A stretch of DNA of 22,149 nucleotides. Source: a virus. The stretch's first letter is position 1; the number at the start of each line of letters is the position of its first letter. Shown here one piece after another: positions 7,757 to 19,602 of this stretch. The notes beneath the pieces were generated by a model. It was not told where the DNA came from. It was given only the letters and a program-made list of their open reading frames with translations, and made no database searches. A program made the position numbers and the translations under genes. Where the stretch lies: positions 1 through 22,149 of the IMG/VR virus record IMGVR_UViG_3300036652_000990. The stretch is one strand, 5' to 3'.

Positions 7757-9169
7757 ATGGAAACGCTCTCGCCATGGGAGGTCGCCGCCCGGGAGTTCGA
7801 GATCATCCGCTCTCCGGCATGGCGGAAGATCGCCCGCCCAGAACAACTCGCACCCGAAGGCGACTGGCTGACCTGGGCCTTCGTTGCCGGACGCGGATGC
7901 GGGAAGACCAGGGCTGCCGCCGAGTGGGTACATGAGAAGGCAATGCAGAACCCGGGCGTGCGTATCGCCCTGGTCGGCCGCACCCCGGCCGATGTTCGCG
8001 ACGTCATGATCGAGGGCGAGTCCGGGATCACCGCCGTCGCCGGAGTCGACGCGCCGATCTACCAGTCGACCAAGCGGCGGCTCACCTGGGCCAACGGTTC
8101 CACCGCACACGCATACTCGGCCGAAGTCCCCGCGCAGCTCCGCGGACCCCAGCACCACTTTGCCTGGTGTGATGAGCCCGCCGCCTGGACGGACGCCGCC
8201 AAGGGCGACGCCCTGGACACGGCATGGAACAACCTCATGCTCGGGTTGCGCCTGGGTCGCTCTCCGCGCTGCGTAGCGACCACCACGCCCAAGCCCAACG
8301 CCCTCGTTCGAACGATCATGGGCCGCAAGTCCAGCACAGTCACCCGCGGTTCGACCTACGACAACCTCAGCAACCTCGCGCCCTCGTTCCGTGAAGAGGT
8401 CCTGGCGACCTACGAGGGCACGCGCATCGGCCGGCAGGAGCTCCTCGGTGAGCTCCTCGACGACGTCGAGGGCGCGCTGTGGACCATCGCGCTGCTGGAC
8501 GCGGACCGGGTACGGGTCGCACCGGAGATGCGGCGAATCGTCGTCGCGATCGACCCGTCCGGCGGGTCCGGTCCGAACAATGACGAGCAGGGCATCGTCG
8601 TCGTCGGCCTCGGAATCGACGGCGCACTGTACGTCCTGGCGGACCGTTCCTGCTCACTGTCGCCGCACGGTTGGGCGTCACGGGCGGTGGGCGCATACCG
8701 GGAGTTCAACGCCGACCGGATCATCGCGGAGAAGAACTACGGCGGCGACATGGTCGAGTCGACGATCCGTCAGGTCGACACGGACGCCCCGGTCAAGGTC
8801 ATCACCGCGTCGCGCGGCAAGGTCCAGCGAGCGGAACCCGTGGCGGCCCTGTATGAGCAGCACCGGGTCCGCCATGTCGGGGCGATGCCGAAACTCGAAG
8901 ACCAGATGACGACGTGGACGCCGCAGGACGGGACGAGCCCCGACCGCCTCGACGCACTGGTCTGGGCGGTGACCGAGCTGACCGACAACTTCAGCGCGCA
9001 GGCGTGGATCGACTACGCCCGCCGCAAGGCCGAAGCCGCCGCGAACCCGGGGACGCAGACCGAGGCGCAGGACGAACCGGCACCCGGGCAGCCCACCCCC
9101 GGCGACCCCGACGCCGCCGCACGCCAACACGCCCGCAACGCCGCCTACCGCGCCCAACGCAACCGGTAG
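7757..9169 (+). CDS. terminase large subunit (ATPase and nuclease)
   Basis: The gene encodes 470 residues from ATG 7757. The packaging ATPase domain is at the N-terminus: Walker A as GRGCGKT (45-51, in FVAGRGCGKTRAAAEW), Walker B as FAWCDE (135-140) and coupling motif TTTPKP (175-180). The RNase H-like nuclease domain has acidic residues at D266 (VAIDPSGG), E325 (AEKNYGG) and D399 (RLDALVWA), the usual three catalytic positions of the Terminase_6 type. It cuts concatemeric DNA and drives it into the prohead through the portal. The last about 50 residues are a Pro/Ala-rich tail. All key motifs are present, so it should be active; no intein is seen here although terminases are common intein hosts. 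Confidence 0.95.
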   Translation: METLSPWEVAAREFEIIRSPAWRKIARPEQLAPEGDWLTWAFVAGRGCGKTRAAAEWVHEKAMQNPGVRIALVGRTPADVRDVMIEGESGITAVAGVDAPIYQSTKRRLTWANGSTAHAYSAEVPAQLRGPQHHFAWCDEPAAWTDAAKGDALDTAWNNLMLGLRLGRSPRCVATTTPKPNALVRTIMGRKSSTVTRGSTYDNLSNLAPSFREEVLATYEGTRIGRQELLGELLDDVEGALWTIALLDADRVRVAPEMRRIVVAIDPSGGSGPNNDEQGIVVVGLGIDGALYVLADRSCSLSPHGWASRAVGAYREFNADRIIAEKNYGGDMVESTIRQVDTDAPVKVITASRGKVQRAEPVAALYEQHRVRHVGAMPKLEDQMTTWTPQDGTSPDRLDALVWAVTELTDNFSAQAWIDYARRKAEAAANPGTQTEAQDEPAPGQPTPGDPDAAARQHARNAAYRAQRNR

Positions 9170-9188: not shown

Positions 9189-12100
9189 GTGGCCGACCCC
9201 CGCCGCATCGCGAAGACCTTCGGCACTAGCGTCCCCGCCGCCATGGAAGCCGGCGCGGCCGCGTCGCAGATGACCCCGGCGACGCCGTTCAGCCCAGGTG
9301 AGCCGATCCGCCCGTTCGACGGGTTCAACCGCACGCCGCGCACCCGCGAGTTCGTCCCCGGGTACAACATCAGCGCCCGGCCCCGGTCCCATGAGCGCGT
9401 CGGTTTCGATACGCTGCGGGGCCTGGTCGACGCCTACGACGTAGCGCAGATGTGCTGCGTACCCGGCACCCTGATCGTCACCAAGCGCGGCGTCGTTCCG
9501 ATCGAGGACGTCATCGTCGGAGACGAAGTCATCACCCACCTCGGCCGGTGGCGCCACGTCACCGAGACGATGACCAACAAGCCTCACGCGCCCGTGCGCA
9601 CCATGCGGACCCGCACCTTCGACGACCTGTCCGTCACCGGCAACCACCCCGTCTACGCCATCGACTACGTCCAGGGCCCGACCCACAAGCGCCAGGCCAC
9701 GGGCATCGGCTGGGTCAGCGCCGACCGCCTCGCCGCCCGCGGCCCCAAGACCCCGCGCGGCGGGGCGCACTTCAACGGCGTAGTGCTGCCTGCGTTCGAC
9801 TTCCCCAACGGACAGCCCCTCCTCGACGTGGCAGCTATCGCCGGAGACGCATACAGCGTGGACGGCGACGGCATGCTCACCCGCACCGCCGGCGGTCGCC
9901 TGAGCCGCGTTCCCGCCAATGTGCCGATGGGTGCCGCTCTCGGCCGGATGCTCGGCTGGTACCTCGCCGAGGGCTCGCAGGCGCACGGCCGGACCGTCGT
10001 GTACTCCCTCGGTCCGACTGAGCGTCACTACGCCGAGCAGATCCTCGCGGACGCGCAGGAGGTCTTCGGGCTCCACGGGACGATCCAGCCCACCGTCCAG
10101 GGCGCCGGGCTCACCGTCACGATCCACTCCACTGTCCTTGCCGCGCTGTTCGCCTGCGGCAAGGCCGTCGACAAGCGCGTTCCGCAGTGGGCGTGGGCCG
10201 GTGGGCGGGAGTTCTTCGGAGCCGCCCTGGATGCGTGGGCGACCGGTGACGGCTGCCGCACGACTCGTGGCAACGACTCGCCCCGCATCACCGTCGTCAC
10301 CCACTCGCGGACACTCGCCTGGCACATGCGGATGGTTGCGATCGGCCTCGGCCTCGCGGCCTCCGTCGTCACGCACCGTGAGAAGCGGGCGTACCCACGC
10401 GTCATCCGTGGCAGCGTAGTCAATACGTCCCCGGTCAGCTACCGCGTCGAATGGCGCGAGAAGCCGCAGCGCTGGGGTGCGACGTCGTTCGAGTTGGACG
10501 GCCGCTACCTTGCGGGCGCGATCTCCTCCATCGAAGAGACGCCCTATGACGGCCCGGTGTACAACCTGGAGGTCGAGGAAGACCACTCGTACGTCACGAC
10601 TGGTGGCGCGGTTCACAACTGTATCTGGCACCGGATCGATTCGATCCGGTCGCTGGAGTGGTCGCTGATCGCGGCGAAGCATTTCGCGGGTGACGTGACC
10701 GAGCACATCCCCGCCGGGATGGCGGCCCTGAAGAAGCCGGACCGGCAGACCCCGTTCTCGTCGTGGCTCTCGGCATACCTGTACGACATCCTCGCGTACG
10801 ACGCCGGGTGCCTGTCGCGGATGCGGAACCGGGCCGGGCGGGCGATCGGGCTGAGGGTCGTGGACGGCACCTGCTACTCCGACGACACCGAAGTCCTCAC
10901 CCGCGACGGCTGGAAGCTCTTCGCGGATGTAGACATCACCACCGACCGGTTCGCGACCCGCAACCAGAAGACGAAGGCGTTCGAGTGGCAGGCGGCCACG
11001 CATTTCACGGCGCAGGACTGGGCCGGGCGCGAGCCGCTCTACCGATTCCACTCACGCAGCTACGACCTGCTGGTCACCGGCAACCACCGGATGCTCGTCA
11101 CGTCCCTTCCGAAGGCCCTCGGCGGCAACGCGCACCGCAAGGGTGAGGCGTTCGTTCCGGCGCAGGACCTCGCCGGGCACTTCACCGGCAAGACCGCCAT
11201 CCCGGCTACCTCCGTGTGGTCGGGCACCCCGATCACCTCGTTCCGGCTTCCGATGGTCAAGCGCGGCAAGTGCGTCACGATGTCCGGCGTCCGGGAGGCC
11301 CGGAAGGCTCGCGGCTGGAGCCAGGCCGTCACGGAGGCCGCCGCTGGACTGTCACACCAGACGTACTGGTCTGCTGAGAACGGCCGCCAGGTCGAACTCG
11401 GCACGGCCGAGGCGATCTTCTACGTGCTCGGAAATGCCGTCACCTGGGAGGTCACGGGCAGTCTTGCGAAAATCGACGCCATTGACGGTGACGACTTCGC
11501 CGCGTTCATGGGCATGTGGCTGTCCGAGGGCAGCCTCAGCGGTGACAGCACCTACGTCTACATCTCGCAGCAGCGCGAGTCCAAGGGGTACCGGGAGTTC
11601 CGGGACCTGCTGATCCGCGTCCTGGGCTCGGAGCCGTCATACGACGGCAATTCCTGGCGCTTCAAGTCGGCCGCCCTCGCGCAGTACCTGCGCCAGTTCG
11701 GGCACGCCGTCGACAAGTTCATCCCCTCTGAACTCCTCGACGCCTCCACGGAGCAGCTCGCCGTCTTCTGGCGGTTCTACATGCTCGGAGACGGCTCGTA
11801 CGACGGCAAGCGCGAGCGGATCCTGACAGCCTCCAAGCGGATGGCCGGCGGACTGCAGGAGGTGGCGCAGAAGATCGGCCGCCAGGCGTCCGTACTGGAG
11901 CGGCAGCCGAACCCGGACGGCTGCACCCTGGCCGACGGGCGGGTGATCCGCAGCGAGCGGACCCAGTACGTCGTCATGCTGCGGAGCAGCGGGAATCATC
12001 TCGTTCGCAACGTGGACCGGGTGGCCTACGACGGCACCGTGTACTGCGTCACCGTGCCGAACGAGACCCTGTACGTGCGCCGCAACGGGCGTCCCGCCTG

Positions 12101-14678
12101 GTGCGGAAACACCGTCGCACCGTTGCTCGATTACTGGGGCAACTCGCCGCAGTCCCCGGCTGAGGCGTACGTGCAGTACATCAACGGGCTGCCGTGGAAC
12201 TGGCTGACGCGTGACGATCTGATCTACGAGCCGTTCCGCAAGCGCCCGAACTCGCCGTACGGGTTGGCTCCGCTGGAGACGATCCTCCTCAACGCCAACA
12301 CGGACCTCAGGTTCCAGCAGTACTTCCTGCAGAAGTTCACTGACGGCAACGTGCCCCGGGCTTTCGCCAGCGCCCCGGAGTCGTGGTCGCCGCAGCAGAT
12401 CGAAATGTTCCAGGAGTTGTGGGACGCCACGTTGATGGGCGACCAGACGGCCCTGTCGCAGGTCAAGTGGATGCCCGGCGGCTCCAAGCTGGAATGGTCG
12501 AACGACAAGGAATTCCAGGACCATTTCTCCCTGTTCCTGATGCGGAAGACCGCCTCCGCTTATCATGTGGTGCCCGCTGACCTGGGCTTCACCGAGACCG
12601 TGAACCGGTCCTCCGGCGAATCACAGGCCGACGTGCAGCACCGCGTCGGCGACCTGCCGCTGCTGCGCCACGTCCAGGACATCCTGACCGCGTTCCTCCA
12701 GGACGACCTCGGCCTGCCGCTCGCGTTCGCGTTCGACCTGGGCGAAGAGCAGGCCGACCGGTTGCAGCAGGCGCAGGCGGACAAGCTCTACGTCGACATG
12801 GGTGCCATCGGGGCGTCCGACATCCGCGAGATGCGGTACGGCCTGCCGGAACCCGACGGACGGCCGGTGCCCCGGTACATCTACACCACGCACGCCGGTC
12901 CGATCCCCCTCGCGAGCCTGTACGCCCTGGCCGGGGACCTCGACCAGACGTCCGGTGCGCCGGAGCCGGGCACGCAGCTGCCGCACACCGTGTTCGGCGG
13001 CGCGGAAGGCGTGCAGCCGTCCCCGCCGATCAAGAACACCTCGCTCGCGGAGCAGGAGTTCGGGCCGTCCGCGATGCCCACGGCCCCGCCGCCGCAGCCC
13101 GTCGCCGACGCCCGCATCGCCAAGGACGGGGAAAGCGCACCGACCGCAGGGATCACCACCGCGACGGGCATCACCGGTTACGACCTGATCGGGCAGCACG
13201 ACGATGAGGACGACGAGGAGGTCGCGACCTCTGACCCGTTCGTCGAGAAGCAGGAGTTGCAGGCGTTCCGAACCTTCCGTAAGTCGCGGGTTCGGGCAGG
13301 GAAGTGGCGCGACTTCACGTTTCGCACCCTGCGGGCCGACGGGGCGCGCGAACTGAACCGTGCTGGGCGGGTGGCCGTGGCGAAGGCCACGGGCAACGTC
13401 GCCGTCGCCGGCCTCGCCGTGCAGGCGGCCGACACCGGCCGCGTCCTGATGCTGCAACGCGCCCTCGACCCCGAAGACCCCGCCGGGGGATTCTGGGAGG
13501 TACCCGGAGGGCACCTCGAAGACGGGGAGTCGCCGCTCCAGGGGGCCTGGCGGGAGTGGAGCGAGGAAGTCCATACCATCCCCCCGCCTGGTCAACAGAC
13601 CGGCGAGTGGGTCAGCTCGAACGGCATCTACCAGGGCATCGTGTGGCAGGTTCCGTCCGAGTCCTTCGTGTCGCTCGACGACCGCGACCAGATCACGAAC
13701 CCGGACGACCCGGATTCCGATGCCGTGGAAGCCATCGCCTGGTGGGACCCCGTCCTGCTCGCTGGCAACCCGGCTGTGCGCCCCGAGCTTCTCGCTGACC
13801 TTGACTCGGTCATGGCCGCACTCGACGGCGTGGCCGAGTTGGAGAAGGCGGCGACCGACCCAAAAGGTGACGCCTCCGACATGGAGGCGTCCACCGACTG
13901 GCCCGGCTGGGAGCTGGACGAGTCCACCGCCGACCACTGGGCGGGTCAGATCCACGACGCCCTCACCGGCGTGCTGCCCGAGGACCAGGCCGGGGACCTG
14001 GCCGGGGACTACCTCGCCGACAACCCGACCCCTGCCGACGGCGAGGAACCGGACACGGAGGCGCTGACTGCCGCCGCGGTCGCATGGCTGGCTTTGCGCG
14101 GCCTGGACTTCGCCACCCCGCTGGCGGGGCTGCTGCCCGGGCTGTACGCGGACGGCTACCTGATCGGCCTCACCGCCGCGCATGCCGTCGTCGACGGGGG
14201 CCGTCCGGACCTGGGCGGCTGGACGCCGGGCGACACCGCTGCCGCCCGGCGTCTGGTCGACGGGCTCGGCGGGACCCAGGGGCTGACTGAACTGTCAGCC
14301 GAGGCCACGTCAGTGGCGGCTGAGATGGCCGCTACCCGCCGCCGGGACCTGGCACGGGCCCTGGTGAAGGGCCTGCTCGCCGGGGTCACGGTGGCGGCGC
14401 TCGGCAATGCCCTTGCGCGGCTGCTCGGGCGTCGGGACACGGCGGCGACGATCGCGCTGACGGAGGTCACCCGCGCGTCCGGGATCGCCGCACTGCTGGG
14501 CTACCGGCAGCGCGATGTCACGCAGGTGCGGTGGCTGACCGACCCGTCCGGGAAAGTCTGTCCCCGCTGCCTCGCCAACGCCGGGGCTGGAGCCGTCCCC
14601 CTGGGGGCGGCGTTCCCCAGCGGGGCCACCTCGGTCCCCCAGCACCCGAGGTGTCGGTGCTCAGTCGTCAACGTGTAA
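9189..14678 (+). CDS. portal-Nudix-MuF fusion with two inteins
   Basis: One frame of 1829 residues from GTG 9189. Portal sequence occupies 1-88, 478-561 and 975 to about 1250. It joins cleanly when inteins 89-477 and 562-974 are removed, giving AQM-CIWHRIDSIRS and VVDGT-TVAPLLDYWG, the latter a typical portal motif. Further portal signatures are LAPLETILLNANTDLRFQQY and FTETVNRSSGESQADVQ. A Pro-rich linker follows. Then a Nudix domain (about 1404-1550, box G1441 to E1460: GGHLEDGESPL, REWSEEV). The C-terminus (about 1640-1829) is MuF/SPP1-gp7-like: ALTEVTRASGIAALLGYRQ, C1791-P-R-C1794 and HPRCRC. The predicted spliced product has 1027 residues. The portal forms the dodecameric DNA channel; MuF proteins ride on it in the prohead. 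No frameshift or stop is seen. Confidence 0.92.
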   Translation: MADPRRIAKTFGTSVPAAMEAGAAASQMTPATPFSPGEPIRPFDGFNRTPRTREFVPGYNISARPRSHERVGFDTLRGLVDAYDVAQMCCVPGTLIVTKRGVVPIEDVIVGDEVITHLGRWRHVTETMTNKPHAPVRTMRTRTFDDLSVTGNHPVYAIDYVQGPTHKRQATGIGWVSADRLAARGPKTPRGGAHFNGVVLPAFDFPNGQPLLDVAAIAGDAYSVDGDGMLTRTAGGRLSRVPANVPMGAALGRMLGWYLAEGSQAHGRTVVYSLGPTERHYAEQILADAQEVFGLHGTIQPTVQGAGLTVTIHSTVLAALFACGKAVDKRVPQWAWAGGREFFGAALDAWATGDGCRTTRGNDSPRITVVTHSRTLAWHMRMVAIGLGLAASVVTHREKRAYPRVIRGSVVNTSPVSYRVEWREKPQRWGATSFELDGRYLAGAISSIEETPYDGPVYNLEVEEDHSYVTTGGAVHNCIWHRIDSIRSLEWSLIAAKHFAGDVTEHIPAGMAALKKPDRQTPFSSWLSAYLYDILAYDAGCLSRMRNRAGRAIGLRVVDGTCYSDDTEVLTRDGWKLFADVDITTDRFATRNQKTKAFEWQAATHFTAQDWAGREPLYRFHSRSYDLLVTGNHRMLVTSLPKALGGNAHRKGEAFVPAQDLAGHFTGKTAIPATSVWSGTPITSFRLPMVKRGKCVTMSGVREARKARGWSQAVTEAAAGLSHQTYWSAENGRQVELGTAEAIFYVLGNAVTWEVTGSLAKIDAIDGDDFAAFMGMWLSEGSLSGDSTYVYISQQRESKGYREFRDLLIRVLGSEPSYDGNSWRFKSAALAQYLRQFGHAVDKFIPSELLDASTEQLAVFWRFYMLGDGSYDGKRERILTASKRMAGGLQEVAQKIGRQASVLERQPNPDGCTLADGRVIRSERTQYVVMLRSSGNHLVRNVDRVAYDGTVYCVTVPNETLYVRRNGRPAWCGNTVAPLLDYWGNSPQSPAEAYVQYINGLPWNWLTRDDLIYEPFRKRPNSPYGLAPLETILLNANTDLRFQQYFLQKFTDGNVPRAFASAPESWSPQQIEMFQELWDATLMGDQTALSQVKWMPGGSKLEWSNDKEFQDHFSLFLMRKTASAYHVVPADLGFTETVNRSSGESQADVQHRVGDLPLLRHVQDILTAFLQDDLGLPLAFAFDLGEEQADRLQQAQADKLYVDMGAIGASDIREMRYGLPEPDGRPVPRYIYTTHAGPIPLASLYALAGDLDQTSGAPEPGTQLPHTVFGGAEGVQPSPPIKNTSLAEQEFGPSAMPTAPPPQPVADARIAKDGESAPTAGITTATGITGYDLIGQHDDEDDEEVATSDPFVEKQELQAFRTFRKSRVRAGKWRDFTFRTLRADGARELNRAGRVAVAKATGNVAVAGLAVQAADTGRVLMLQRALDPEDPAGGFWEVPGGHLEDGESPLQGAWREWSEEVHTIPPPGQQTGEWVSSNGIYQGIVWQVPSESFVSLDDRDQITNPDDPDSDAVEAIAWWDPVLLAGNPAVRPELLADLDSVMAALDGVAELEKAATDPKGDASDMEASTDWPGWELDESTADHWAGQIHDALTGVLPEDQAGDLAGDYLADNPTPADGEEPDTEALTAAAVAWLALRGLDFATPLAGLLPGLYADGYLIGLTAAHAVVDGGRPDLGGWTPGDTAAARRLVDGLGGTQGLTELSAEATSVAAEMAATRRRDLARALVKGLLAGVTVAALGNALARLLGRRDTAATIALTEVTRASGIAALLGYRQRDVTQVRWLTDPSGKVCPRCLANAGAGAVPLGAAFPSGATSVPQHPRCRCSVVNV
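9453..10619 (+). mobile_element. intein 1 in the portal (389 residues, LAGLIDADG)
   Basis: Precursor residues 89-477. The first residue is taken as C89 of CCVPGTLIV because this places Thr at position 6, as in canonical block A. Block B is VTGNHPV (149-155, with T150 and H153). A LAGLIDADG homing endonuclease lies in the middle: LGWYLAEG (255-262) and ALDAWATGDG (346-355) hold the two acidic residues. Blocks F/G read VYNLEVEEDHSYV and GGAVHN. The +1 residue is Cys478. All splicing and endonuclease motifs look intact, so both activities are likely. The insertion is in a conserved helix of the portal. Confidence 0.92.
10872..12110 (+). mobile_element. intein 2 in the portal (413 residues, LAGLIDADG plus HTH)
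   Basis: Precursor residues 562-974. Block A is CYSDDTEVLTRDG and block B LLVTGNH (627-633). The endonuclease motifs are FMGMWLSEG (773-781) and FYMLGDGS (863-870). Between block B and the first LAGLIDADG motif sits a segment resembling an XRE/lambda-repressor helix-turn-helix: VREARKARGWSQAVTEAAAG, then LSHQTYWSAENGRQ (701-734). The C-terminal end is LYVRRNGRPAWCGN before Thr975, so the penultimate residue is Gly instead of the usual His. Insertion is inside the conserved DGT-T motif of portals. Confidence 0.9.
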
Positions 14679-14711: not shown

Positions 14712-16952
14712 ATGCCCGAAGAGCAGCGTTTCGTTTTGGGAATTGCCTACCAGGCGGGTCCAGATCCGCGCATTAAACGCGGCATCGACGGCGGCCGGGA
14801 CTGGTTCAGCAAAGCCGAACTCGAACGTGCGGCTTGGAGCTACATGCGCTCTGGCTGCCCGCAGATGAACGCGTTCCACACCGACGGGACCGAGGACTGC
14901 GCTGAGCCCGTGGAGTCATTCATCTGGCGTTGGGGCGACTGGGATGTCGGCGACGGGATCGTCGTCAAGGACGGCGACTGGTGTCTCGGCGCCATTCTCA
15001 GCCCGCGCATGTGGGAGCTCCACAAGGCCGGGAAGGTGAATGCCTTCTCCCCGCAGGGCACTGCCCGTCGACGCCAGGTTCAGAAGGAGGGCGCTATGAC
15101 GGTCGCGAAGGGGGCGGTCGACTCGGTTGACGACGGCGAGTTCACCGAACTGGTAGACGCGACCATCCCCACGATGGCGCTTGTCGGCCAGGGCGCTAAC
15201 GGCATCCCCCGATTCCTGATCAGCAAGCAAGAGGACGGCAGTGCTGGTCTGTTCGACCCTGCGGTTGTCCGCGACCTGCTCGCCAAGTCCGAACCCGAAC
15301 CCGCCCCGGAGGACACGGTGACGATGACCGGGAGCCCCGCCGCGATCGCGCGGCTCATCCACGGCGCACCCGTACGGCAGGTCGCCAAGGCGAAGTACGA
15401 CGCCGCCGACCTCAAACGCATGGCCGCCAACCACGAGGCAATGCCGGACGAGTCGTACCCCGTCGCCGACAAGGCCGACCTCACCAGCGCCATCCGCGCC
15501 GTCGGCAGGGGCGGAGCCGACCACGACGCCATCCGACGGCACGTGATCGCCCGAGCGGAGGCCCTCGGCGCTACGTCCGAGATCCCGGACAACTGGAACG
15601 CCGACGGCTCGCTGAAGGGCGACGTGGCGAAGGAGATGGACATGGACGACGACCTGGACCCGACGACGCTCCTCGCCGACACCGACGGCGACGCGCCCGG
15701 CATGGACACCGACCCCGGCTCCCCCGCCTGGGAGGAGATCGACGCCGCCACCGCCCGCAAGTGGACCATGATCCTCGCCCGGGCGAAGGCCGCCATCGAC
15801 CTGCTCGCCGACCGCGAGATGCTCGAAGCCGCCTCCGGCGACGAAGACGACGCCGACAACGCCTTCGACCTCCAAGACGCGTGCTGCGCCATCGACTACG
15901 CCATCAGCGTCCTGGCGCCGTTCGCCGTCGACGAGCAGGCCGAGGCCGACTGCTGCGACGACATGCAGACCGTCGGCAAGGCCCTGGCGGACTGGGACGC
16001 AGCCCCGCTGGACACCATCGAGGCCCTCGGCCACGTCCGCAAGGCCGGCCGGGTCCTGTCGGCGGGCAACGAGGCCGCGATCCGCGGGGCCGTCGACAGC
16101 CTGCAGAAGGTCCTCGCCAGCCTGCCCGCCGCACCCATCACCGAGGAGGGCGGCCAGACGGTCGCCAAGACCGCGAACCTGGAGCCCGACATGCCGAAGC
16201 CGACCCTGTCCGAGGACGCCACCGCCGAGTCCGGACAGGAGTCCGCCATGGGTACCGCCGAACCCGACCCCAAGCCCGTCGCCGGAGTGCCCGTCACCGC
16301 CATGGCGAAGGCCGACGGCGAGAAGACCCCGATGACGGTGGTCTACGACCAGAAGGGCCGGCTGATCGGCATCGTCGACCCGGCCGACGTCACCCCGGTC
16401 TCCAATAGCGAGGCCGACCCCGGCGAGGCCCCCGACGACACCGCCGCCCCCGAGGCGGCCCCCGACGCTTCCGACCTCACCCCCGCACCCGCGGGCGAGG
16501 TCGGCACCCCCGCCGACGCCGTCCCCACGGACGACGACACGGTAGCCAAGACCACCGGCAACAACGACACCACCTCGGAAGAGGTGCTCAAGAGCATCGT
16601 CGACACCCGAGTCGCAGCAAAGCTCGCCGAGTACAGGACCACACAGGAGCAGGCCGTCGCCAAGCAGGCCGACGAACGCGCTCAGCTGGTCGAGCTCATC
16701 GAGATGCTGAAGGGCCGGGTCGAGACGCTGGAGGAGCAGCCCGCCGAACCGCGTGTCTTCACCAACGGGCAGACCCCGCCGCGCGACCTGCGCGGCATGG
16801 ACCGGGGCGCCCGTTCCATCGACGTCCTCAAGGCCGCGGAGCTCAAGAAGAGCCTCATGGCCTCGACCAACGCCGTCGAGCAGCGAGACATCGTGGCGCG
16901 CATGAACGGAGAGGCGCGCTTCGCGTTCGACCAGCTCCAATCACGCGGCTAA
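14712..16952 (+). CDS. XkdF-like prohead protease fused to scaffold
   Basis: The gene encodes 746 residues from ATG 14712. Residues 1-122 match the XkdF putative serine protease type: H56 (NAFHTDG), VES (67-69), VGDGIVVKDGDWCLGAIL and VNAFSPQGTARRR with S113. Residues 228-300 resemble the small DUF6582-type domain (AMPDESYPVADKADLTSAIR, ARAEALGAT). The middle (300-480) is acidic and helical, followed by a low-complexity Pro/Asp/Ala stretch (about 480-615). A coiled coil (about 623-676, VAAKLAEYRTTQEQAVAKQA, QLVELIEMLKGRVETLEE) and a final capsid-scaffold-like helix (to QLQSRG) end it. Such proteases process the prohead; the coiled coil would supply the scaffold. A terminator follows. Confidence 0.83.
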   Translation: MPEEQRFVLGIAYQAGPDPRIKRGIDGGRDWFSKAELERAAWSYMRSGCPQMNAFHTDGTEDCAEPVESFIWRWGDWDVGDGIVVKDGDWCLGAILSPRMWELHKAGKVNAFSPQGTARRRQVQKEGAMTVAKGAVDSVDDGEFTELVDATIPTMALVGQGANGIPRFLISKQEDGSAGLFDPAVVRDLLAKSEPEPAPEDTVTMTGSPAAIARLIHGAPVRQVAKAKYDAADLKRMAANHEAMPDESYPVADKADLTSAIRAVGRGGADHDAIRRHVIARAEALGATSEIPDNWNADGSLKGDVAKEMDMDDDLDPTTLLADTDGDAPGMDTDPGSPAWEEIDAATARKWTMILARAKAAIDLLADREMLEAASGDEDDADNAFDLQDACCAIDYAISVLAPFAVDEQAEADCCDDMQTVGKALADWDAAPLDTIEALGHVRKAGRVLSAGNEAAIRGAVDSLQKVLASLPAAPITEEGGQTVAKTANLEPDMPKPTLSEDATAESGQESAMGTAEPDPKPVAGVPVTAMAKADGEKTPMTVVYDQKGRLIGIVDPADVTPVSNSEADPGEAPDDTAAPEAAPDASDLTPAPAGEVGTPADAVPTDDDTVAKTTGNNDTTSEEVLKSIVDTRVAAKLAEYRTTQEQAVAKQADERAQLVELIEMLKGRVETLEEQPAEPRVFTNGQTPPRDLRGMDRGARSIDVLKAAELKKSLMASTNAVEQRDIVARMNGEARFAFDQLQSRG

Positions 16953-17004: not shown

Positions 17005-17027
17005 CGCATACCCCGAAGCAGGTGGAC

Positions 17028-18521
17028 ATGAACTCCCAGCAGGAAATGACGGAGGCAACCCTGGCGGCGATCGCCAAGGCCGCCACCAGCGGTATCACCA
17101 CACAGACCGGCCTCTACTCGTACGACCTCGGACCGCTGGTCCAGCTCGTCCCCGTGGTCACGCCGGCCCGTGACGCCATCCCCCGCGTGGTGGCCACGGA
17201 CGGTAACCCGTACGCCGTGTGGCGTGCGATCCTCAACAACACCAATGCGCAGCCCAGCCCCTTCATGGGCCTGGACTTCGCGGCGAACGTCAGCAAGGTC
17301 AGCGAGCAGGACTTCCAGGCGAAGTACATGCGGTCCGGCATGGGCGGCACCGTCACCCTGGACGCGCAGGACTTCTCCAAGGGCTACTCCGACGCCAATG
17401 CCGTCGCCACTTTCCAGACCCTCAACCAGGTCCTGATCGGCGATGACCGCGCACTGGTCGGCGCGCAGTCGTTCCCGCTGGCGCGCCCTGCCGCACCGAC
17501 CCTGGTGCAGCACGCCACCGGCGGCACGATCGGCGCGGCAACGGTTTACGTTGGGGTGGCCGCCCGTACGGGCACTGGCTACTACTACGGCACCGGGAAC
17601 AGTCAGGGCAACAGCGGGAGCACGGTCGTCGCGTCCGGTACGACGAACTCCGTGTCGGCGACCGTGGCGGCGGTTCGCGGTGCGGTGTGCTGGGACTGGT
17701 TCCAGTCCGCGAACGGCACGACCTGGTTCTACTACACGACCACGACCGTCAACGCGGTCACCATGACCTCGGTCATCGGGTCGAACAACGCGCTGCCGTC
17801 GGGTACGGCCGTGCCGGACCTTTCCGTTAACTGGAAGGGGGCGTCGGGAACCGTCCCGACGTTCCTGGCCAGCGGTGACAACGGCTCCGGCGACCCCACC
17901 CAGTACGACGGGCTCCTCGCGTCGCTGAGCGGCGACTACAACGCCACCGGCCAGTGGGTCCAGCCTGGGACCGGCACCGTCAATCCGTCCACGTTCTCCT
18001 CGCTCGACGGCTCCGGGCTCACCCTGTCCGGCGGCAGCGTCAACGAGTTCAACGAGTTCCTGTTCCTGCCGCTGTGGAACGCCGTGAAGTGCAGCCCCAC
18101 CGCGATCATGATGAACGCGGCGCAGGCGCAGGAGACGGCGAACCTCGTCCTGGGCGGGAGCGCGGCGACGACGTTCCTCCAGACTGACGCCTCGGGCCGT
18201 CTGTCGACCACCGCGGGTGGCCGTGTCGGGAGCGTCATCAACGCCCCCGCGGGCGGCATCGACGTGCCGATCGAGGTCCACCCGTCCGTGCCGCCGGGCA
18301 TGATCATCGCCCGGACCGACCGGGTGCCGTTCCCCCAGGCGAACATCAGCTCCGTGCTGGAGTACCGGGCACTGCGCGACACCTACCGGTACGACTACGC
18401 CAGTTCCCGGCAGACGGGCGTCGCGGGCGGAGGTCCGAGGGTCGATTTTGAGATCGAAAGTCTCGGCGCGTTCGTCAATCGAGCCCCTGTGAGCATGGCT
18501 GTGCTCTCTAATGTCGGCTGA
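17028..18521 (+). CDS. major capsid protein
   Basis: The gene encodes 497 residues from ATG 17028, with GAAGCAGG upstream; GTG 17022 (two residues longer) is less well spaced. Position after the protease-scaffold gene, size and high expression-type codons support the call. The N-terminal arm (MNSQQEMTEATLAAIAKAAT) and the C-terminal part (IEVHPSVPPGMIIARTDRVP, FEIESLGAFVNRAPVSMAVL) look like a HK97-fold capsid with its final core strands. Residues about 156-251 (APTLVQHATGGTIGAATVYV to TMTSVIGSN) form a Gly/Ser/Thr-rich beta segment resembling an Ig-like insertion. Several hundred copies would form the shell. No HK97-type cross-link is assumed. Confidence 0.88.
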   Translation: MNSQQEMTEATLAAIAKAATSGITTQTGLYSYDLGPLVQLVPVVTPARDAIPRVVATDGNPYAVWRAILNNTNAQPSPFMGLDFAANVSKVSEQDFQAKYMRSGMGGTVTLDAQDFSKGYSDANAVATFQTLNQVLIGDDRALVGAQSFPLARPAAPTLVQHATGGTIGAATVYVGVAARTGTGYYYGTGNSQGNSGSTVVASGTTNSVSATVAAVRGAVCWDWFQSANGTTWFYYTTTTVNAVTMTSVIGSNNALPSGTAVPDLSVNWKGASGTVPTFLASGDNGSGDPTQYDGLLASLSGDYNATGQWVQPGTGTVNPSTFSSLDGSGLTLSGGSVNEFNEFLFLPLWNAVKCSPTAIMMNAAQAQETANLVLGGSAATTFLQTDASGRLSTTAGGRVGSVINAPAGGIDVPIEVHPSVPPGMIIARTDRVPFPQANISSVLEYRALRDTYRYDYASSRQTGVAGGGPRVDFEIESLGAFVNRAPVSMAVLSNVG

Positions 18522-18618: not shown

Positions 18619-19602
18619 ATGACCGTCCGCGCTGACATTGACTGCTCAATCCCGGAGTGCGGCAAGCATGCGTTCGGACGTGGGTGGTGCGGAATGCACT
18701 ACGCCCGCTGGCGGAAGCACGGCGACCCGTTGCACGAGACGCGTCGTTACGCGAAGCAGTCCAGTACGTGTTCCGTCGATGGGTGCGAGCGGAAGCCCAA
18801 GCACGACAACCTCTGCTATATGCACTTCCGTCGCCTCGCCAACCATGGCGAGGCCACCGATCCGCGCGAGCGGAAGTTCTGGGCCCAGGTCGACAAGGAC
18901 GGACCACTCCCCGACGAGCGGCCCGAGTTGGGGTCGTGCTGGGTTTGGACCGGCTGCAAGTTCGAAGCGACGGGCTACGGGGTTTTCGGCGGCAAAGGAT
19001 CAACACGGCTCGTTCACCGCATCGCCTACCAGTACCTCGTTGGGCCGATCCCCGCAGGGCTATCTCTCGACCATCTGTGCCGTCGGCGCATCTGCTGTCG
19101 GCCAGATCACTGCGAACCGGTAACGCAGCGAGAGAACATCCGGCGCGGTGACCAGGGCGCGTTCTGGGGATACGTACCGGAGCTGATCCCGCAGAAGCCG
19201 AAGGTCGAGAAGCCGGCGGCCTGCACGGAGTCCGGCTGCGAGCGCCCGGTGTACAAGCGGACGATCTGCCGCCCGCACTACCGCAAGTGGCTTGCTGATC
19301 CCACAGTTGAACGGCCGTCGCAGCGAACCCCTGAGCAGCGCTTCTGGGGGAAGGTCGAGAAGACGGACGGTTGCTGGCTTTGGACCGGAGCCATCAATCG
19401 AGGCACGGGCTACGGGCATTTCGGCCTGCGTCACGGCGTCATGGTTCAGGCACACCGCCATTCATACGAACTCGAAAACGGCCTGATCCCTGAGGGCCTG
19501 GACGTGCATCACACGTGTCATGTGCGGCACTGTGTGCGGCCCGATCACCTTCGCGCCCTGTCTCGATCCGAGAACCTCGCGCTCCGCAAGGTGCGCCGCT
19601 GA
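18619..19602 (+). CDS. free-standing double HNH endonuclease
   Basis: The gene encodes 327 residues from ATG 18619, with AAGGGG upstream. Two HNH modules are present: FWAQVDKDG, CWVWTGCKFEATGYG and LDHLCRRRICCRPDHCEPV in 87-170, and FWGKVEKTDGCWLWTG, then VHHTCHVRHCVRPDHLRALS in 242-315. Each carries the catalytic H plus Cys/His metal-site positions of HNH_3-type homing endonucleases. Three zinc-finger units precede or separate them (9-36, 51-77, 202-226; Cx4-5C spacing then CxxH). The gene is probably a homing endonuclease inserted next to the capsid gene. Module 1 has Cys where Leu is usual (PDHCEPV), so its activity is less certain. It is not a structural gene. Confidence 0.9.
   Translation: MTVRADIDCSIPECGKHAFGRGWCGMHYARWRKHGDPLHETRRYAKQSSTCSVDGCERKPKHDNLCYMHFRRLANHGEATDPRERKFWAQVDKDGPLPDERPELGSCWVWTGCKFEATGYGVFGGKGSTRLVHRIAYQYLVGPIPAGLSLDHLCRRRICCRPDHCEPVTQRENIRRGDQGAFWGYVPELIPQKPKVEKPAACTESGCERPVYKRTICRPHYRKWLADPTVERPSQRTPEQRFWGKVEKTDGCWLWTGAINRGTGYGHFGLRHGVMVQAHRHSYELENGLIPEGLDVHHTCHVRHCVRPDHLRALSRSENLALRKVRR

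Follow-up and report, generated by a model that had tools for sequence, protein, structure and literature searches.

Two class 1-type inteins predicted in the portal gene of a soil phage

A portal-NUDIX-MuF gene interrupted twice

The portal is the ring through which DNA enters the virus head. In the window, the whole 22,149-base stretch of DNA that was analysed, the portal gene is fused to NUDIX and MuF-like domains and follows an uninterrupted terminase gene (Table 1). It was assigned to PHROG portal family phrog_2662 (1.1e-52), and the portal fold was backed by a structure search in which portals ranked first for the model of an intein-free relative, L007, among them the portal of phage 812 (4e-14), this model being of moderate quality (pLDDT 64); the portal sequence profile itself returned no useful solved structure. 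A nucleotide search of named phages gave no match to the window. Further along the window lie a gene whose product is probably a head maturation protease with a fused scaffold-like region (14712-16952), a phrog_13692 protein where a major capsid protein would be expected (17022-18521) and, downstream of the head genes, a free-standing gene in which two HNH endonuclease motifs occur (18619-19602).

Table 1. Features of the portal locus, in window positions (aa, residues of the precursor)
Feature	Position	Strand	Description
Terminase large subunit	7757..9169	+	uninterrupted; profile matches
Portal-NUDIX-MuF fusion gene	9189..14678	+	single open frame; 1829-aa precursor; GTG start
N-extein	9189..9452	+	portal residues 1-88 (...YDVAQM); alignment with relatives
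Intein 1	9453..10619	+	389 aa, CCVPGTLIV...GGAVHN/C; class 1-type Hint + LAGLIDADG; aa 89-477
Intein 1 LAGLIDADG homing endonuclease region	9921..10379	+	LGWYLAEG ... AWATGDG
Middle extein	10620..10871	+	84 portal residues (CIWHRID...RVVDGT); alignment with relatives
Intein 2	10872..12110	+	413 aa, CYSDDTEVL...PAWCGN/T; class 1-type Hint + HTH + LAGLIDADG; aa 562-974
HTH (Cro/C1-type) accessory domain	11289..11438	+	inside intein 2, between Hint-N and first LAGLIDADG helix
Intein 2 LAGLIDADG homing endonuclease region	11484..11888	+	MGMWLSEG ... YMLGDG
C-extein	12111..14675	+	remaining portal domain + NUDIX + MuF-like domain
Phage_portal (Pfam)	12177..12833	+	aa 997-1215, 1.2e-11
NUDIX domain, portal-fused	13413..13760	+	profile matches
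MuF-like minor head domain	14349..14666	+	PHROG 4.2e-12; Pfam score below cut-off

Judged by sequence comparison, this frame was confirmed as a soil-phage portal gene that carries two inteins, as a preliminary description had proposed; both inserts are in frame, complete and of class 1 type. A Pfam/NCBIfam profile search placed Hint_2 at aa 88-129 (1.3e-8), Intein_splicing at aa 444-477 (1.9e-7, slightly below the curated cut-off), intein_Cterm TIGR01443 at aa 456-478 (8.7e-7) and, within intein 2, LAGLIDADG_3 at aa 855-915 (2.3e-8). The window's portal family is encoded at 79 loci in IMG/VR; counted on distinct rows, site 1 (88/89) is empty in 69 homologous portals and site 2 (172/173) in 68, the flanks being continuous over the splice point. 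Neither insert is present in the nearest relative, L007 (81% identical), which reads YDVAQM/CIWHRIDS and VVDGT/TIAPLLDY at the two positions. Both sites are also empty in Arthrobacter phages Sonali and Mufasa8 (L002 and L003), whose proteins, annotated as portal, portal-MuF fusion or MutT/NUDIX, belong to the same portal family and are 45-46% identical to the window in the core, but have no intein.

Alignment with these relatives showed the previously proposed intein boundaries and spliced product to be exact: removal of both inteins from the precursor is predicted to leave 1027 residues, and the continuous portal sequence expected at each junction matches the uninterrupted homologues. Intein 1 begins at the first of two Cys residues, because the relatives' empty sites read YDVAQM/CIWHR and a Thr stands at intein position 6; a start at the second Cys (1028-residue product) was excluded on the same evidence. 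Extra domains, NUDIX and 2H among them, do occur in this portal family, and the inserts might likewise be conserved domains, of portal or cargo type, and not inteins. This alternative is practically inconceivable, being refuted by approximately 70 distinct relatives that lack the inserts at exact junctions; further, both inserts contain complete Hint and LAGLIDADG modules. Relatives retaining either segment as a portal domain were looked for among the homologues and were not found.

The slot between the portal and MuF-like domains holds NUDIX in many relatives as well as in the window, a 2'-5' RNA ligase (2H) domain by Pfam in L102 and, in L060/L086 and L062, a region that by eye resembles the 2H of L102; NUDIX and 2H fusions to portal or MuF have been noted (PMC9503650). 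The portal genes of L034, L035, L037, L040, L042 and L066 have their NUDIX domain split by approximately 320-540 bases. By eye, the L040 insert (L040:7369-7911) appears to hold an opposite-strand gene, and in several of the broken genes the second half opens with its own ATG (M(S/A)DPAAGKFE). A group I intron at this break was considered and rejected, Rfam having given no match for these genes.

Among genomes, the portal family is carried by Streptomyces, Kitasatospora and one Catenulispora bin, and these relatives suggest that the window is probably from a phage or prophage of the Streptomyces/Kitasatospora/Catenulispora group. In a sample of 298 Streptomycetaceae genomes, the portal family was found in three and the intein family in one, where an internal stop breaks the frame.

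Splicing and endonuclease residues of the two inteins

Intein 1 has the residues of a class 1 intein, namely C1, block B T62-x-x-H65 (TGNH) and a terminal Asn within AVHN/C, so that the penultimate His is present and the +1 residue is Cys. Intein 2 has C1, T69-x-N-H72 (TGNH), N413 and a +1 Thr; its block G, WCGN/T, has Gly at the penultimate place instead of the canonical His, which is usual but not obligatory. Of the full set of block motifs claimed earlier for both modules, C1, TGNH, the terminal Asn and the paired LAGLIDADG motifs are thus present, but block G of intein 2 departs from the canonical form. Class 3 inteins lack a nucleophile at position 1 and have a W-C-T triplet; neither insert is of this class, as both have Cys1 and carry V or C, in place of T, immediately ahead of the penultimate residue. 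The LAGLIDADG acids are kept in both helices of each endonuclease: LAE173G/GD266G (LAEG/TGDG) in intein 1 and LSE219G/GD307G (LSEG/LGDG) in intein 2. The top structural matches of an AlphaFold model of intein 2 (mean pLDDT 86) were the inteins TliVMA and PI-TkoII, and its sequence profile likewise retrieved TliVMA (2e-10). An IMG/VR search with intein 1 as a single query returned nothing, while an alignment query did retrieve matches. The near-identical contig L006 (IMG/VR 3300037069_000616) also holds intein 2, together with the C-terminal 52 residues of intein 1, which are 52/52 identical.

The missing penultimate His may affect how efficiently intein 2 splices and, as the virus record is just 22 kb long, could indicate that one or both inteins splice poorly, leaving a damaged portal in a decaying prophage. 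We regard this as highly improbable: the frame is open through all 1829 codons, the WCGN ending is common to many relatives, and the remaining catalytic positions are kept. G412 is invariant across the eight inteins aligned. Mycobacteriophages, too, have class 1 inteins whose penultimate residue is not His, Gly included, and Kelley et al. (PMC5050341) describe one with Gly that splices fully and efficiently.

Distribution of portal inteins and signs of homing

At least five intein sites are used in the window's portal family: 88/89 (in the window, L040/L042 and L140), 172/173 (the window, L016, L086, L087 and L088), 235/236 (L102-L105 and L123), 248/249 (L081) and 319/320 (L082 and L083). Conservation at the five occupied sites is somewhat above average (p about 0.03). 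Kin of intein 2 also occur in distant portals, some at the equivalent of site 2 and some elsewhere in the protein, as well as in a few terminases. Many IMG/VR portals have a single intein, and two further portals, L124:3086-9115 and L144:2-3622, have two, at positions that differ from the window's pair; the window's double portal is therefore not unique. The rarity supposed in the preliminary description holds insofar as double-intein portals are uncommon, but they recur (window/L006, L124, L144), and single portal inteins are found in IMG/VR and in Eggerthella phage LE2-3 and had been published by 2016 (PMC5050341). Separately, L143:1100-6136 is a single 1679-residue frame with three intein modules, and L132:1757-5422 encodes a terminase large subunit holding two unlike inteins.

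Several observations bear on how the inteins reached their sites. In a tree built from 84 portal cores, six changes are needed to account for the six carriers of a site 2 intein and two for the carriers at site 1, several long branches making deep placements unsure. The Hint-N region of intein 2 is 79, 80, 74 and 71% identical between the window and L016, L086, L087 and L088, respectively, against 71, 64, 50 and 41% for the portal core. By region, intein 2 of the window is 62-74% identical to that of L087 (portal core 50%) and 62-71% identical to that of L088 (portal core 41%). Site 2 inteins that are more alike than their host portals fit the pattern expected from homing, although stronger constraint on the inteins could mimic part of this signal. 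The endonuclease regions have pN/pS values of 0.26-0.57, like the splicing regions, which suggests purifying selection on the inteins; these estimates are rough because the more distant pairs are close to synonymous saturation. Taken together, the tree changes, slow intein divergence and low pN/pS would be in keeping with homing-mediated transfer and with endonucleases that functioned recently.

In every occupied allele counted, the +1 residue is C at site 1 and T at site 2. It is A or V in 14/69 empty site 1 alleles and L or M in 20/68 empty site 2 alleles; as none of these is a possible nucleophile, invasion of such alleles would need co-conversion, which has been described for archaeal MCM inteins (PMC10643990).

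From these features we infer splicing, cleavage and homing of both inteins. Very probably, the locus encodes a portal-NUDIX-MuF precursor containing two self-excising class 1-type inteins with LAGLIDADG homing. Each intein would excise itself and join its flanks to yield the mature portal, intein 1 through Cys1, the terminal Asn and the +1 Cys, and intein 2 through Cys1, the terminal Asn and the +1 Thr, with Gly replacing the penultimate His. The freed intein would then act as a LAGLIDADG homing endonuclease that cuts intein-less portal genes at its own site, and repair of the cut allele would copy the intein in when phages or prophages share one cell.

The preliminary description had further suggested that splicing rate could time prohead assembly. 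A functional portal presumably needs prior splicing, and conditional splicing is documented in other inteins, for example mycobacterial DnaB (PMC6195587), so that domesticated inteins might time portal ring assembly through their splicing rate or through conditional splicing. This suggestion is unsupported and, in our judgement, very unlikely to be right: neither insert occurs in most relatives, the nearest included, the endonuclease residues of both inteins look intact, and no conserved double-intein lineage was seen except the near-identical L006. Mostly empty relatives, patchy presence and intact-looking endonucleases instead fit selfish homing elements with no regulatory role.

An HTH domain in intein 2, and comparison with known inteins

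Intein 2 contains an HTH outside its Hint and endonuclease modules, as expected of an intein accessory domain; the model places its helices at residues 140-189, and profiles match it in the window (HTH_31, 3.9e-5) and in L016 (HTH_3, 1e-5). TliVMA and PI-TkoII likewise combine Hint, LAGLIDADG and an HTH accessory domain, but that of TliVMA lies between the endonuclease and Hint-C (PMC8966425). Placement ahead of the endonuclease is undescribed for the solved inteins compared here. The domain probably adds or tunes DNA contacts.

The HTH is present in four site 2 inteins (window, L016, L086 and L087) and absent from the sister L110 (same contig as L088), which also occupies site 2. In the intein tree, SH-aLRT support is 100 for the five site 2 inteins together and 89 for the four with HTH. 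HTH-like inserts at the same linker were seen in L111 (HTH_19, 5.6e-5) and, by eye and without a profile match, in the site 235 inteins; a further clade has an insert there that looks resolvase-like (HTH_38, 0.001, below cut-off). Several independent gains at one linker are the simpler reading, and an ancestral HTH followed by losses is the less simple one. It has been proposed that inteins acquire such accessory domains to reach new sites (PMC8966425). The site 2 lineage does not bear this proposal out: close relatives that differ in whether they have the HTH share one position there, so that the domain was gained (or lost) with the site unchanged. A more elaborate scenario, in which actinophage portal inteins repeatedly captured different HTHs at one linker ahead of the endonuclease that re-tuned their targets or turned the excised intein into a DNA-binding late-gene regulator, the two splicing events helping to time head assembly, is quite unlikely.

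Neither portal inteins nor genes with two inteins are new to the literature. Portal (PORT) inteins were reported in 2016 for cluster C1 mycobacteriophages, of which the accessible part of Kelley et al. (PMC5050341) lists six; that part describes no portal with two, as in the window. The portal intein of LE2-3 (L092) is also of the Hint-LAGLIDADG type and ends HN/C like intein 1, to which it is 28.5% identical over the full length; it apparently lies in the same early portal helix as site 1, an equivalence judged by eye, although the LE2-3 portal belongs to a different family. Two inteins per conserved gene, in host proteins other than the portal, are known from the phage terminases of Mic1 (PMC7156551) and crAss-like phages (PMC7886860) and from archaeal MCM, where two active neighbouring inteins home poorly together (PMC10643990). 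New here are (i) the number of intein sites in one portal family, (ii) one intein family occupying portal genes at many positions, and (iii) an HTH at one linker in several sub-lineages that a sister occupying the same site lacks.

A head protein that is structural and not enzymatic can be densely targeted by inteins, with at least five sites in this family and others in distant portals. Alleles with no, one or two inteins stand side by side and offer a natural test of whether neighbouring inteins impede one another in homing, and of whether inteins gain DNA-binding domains to change their targets.
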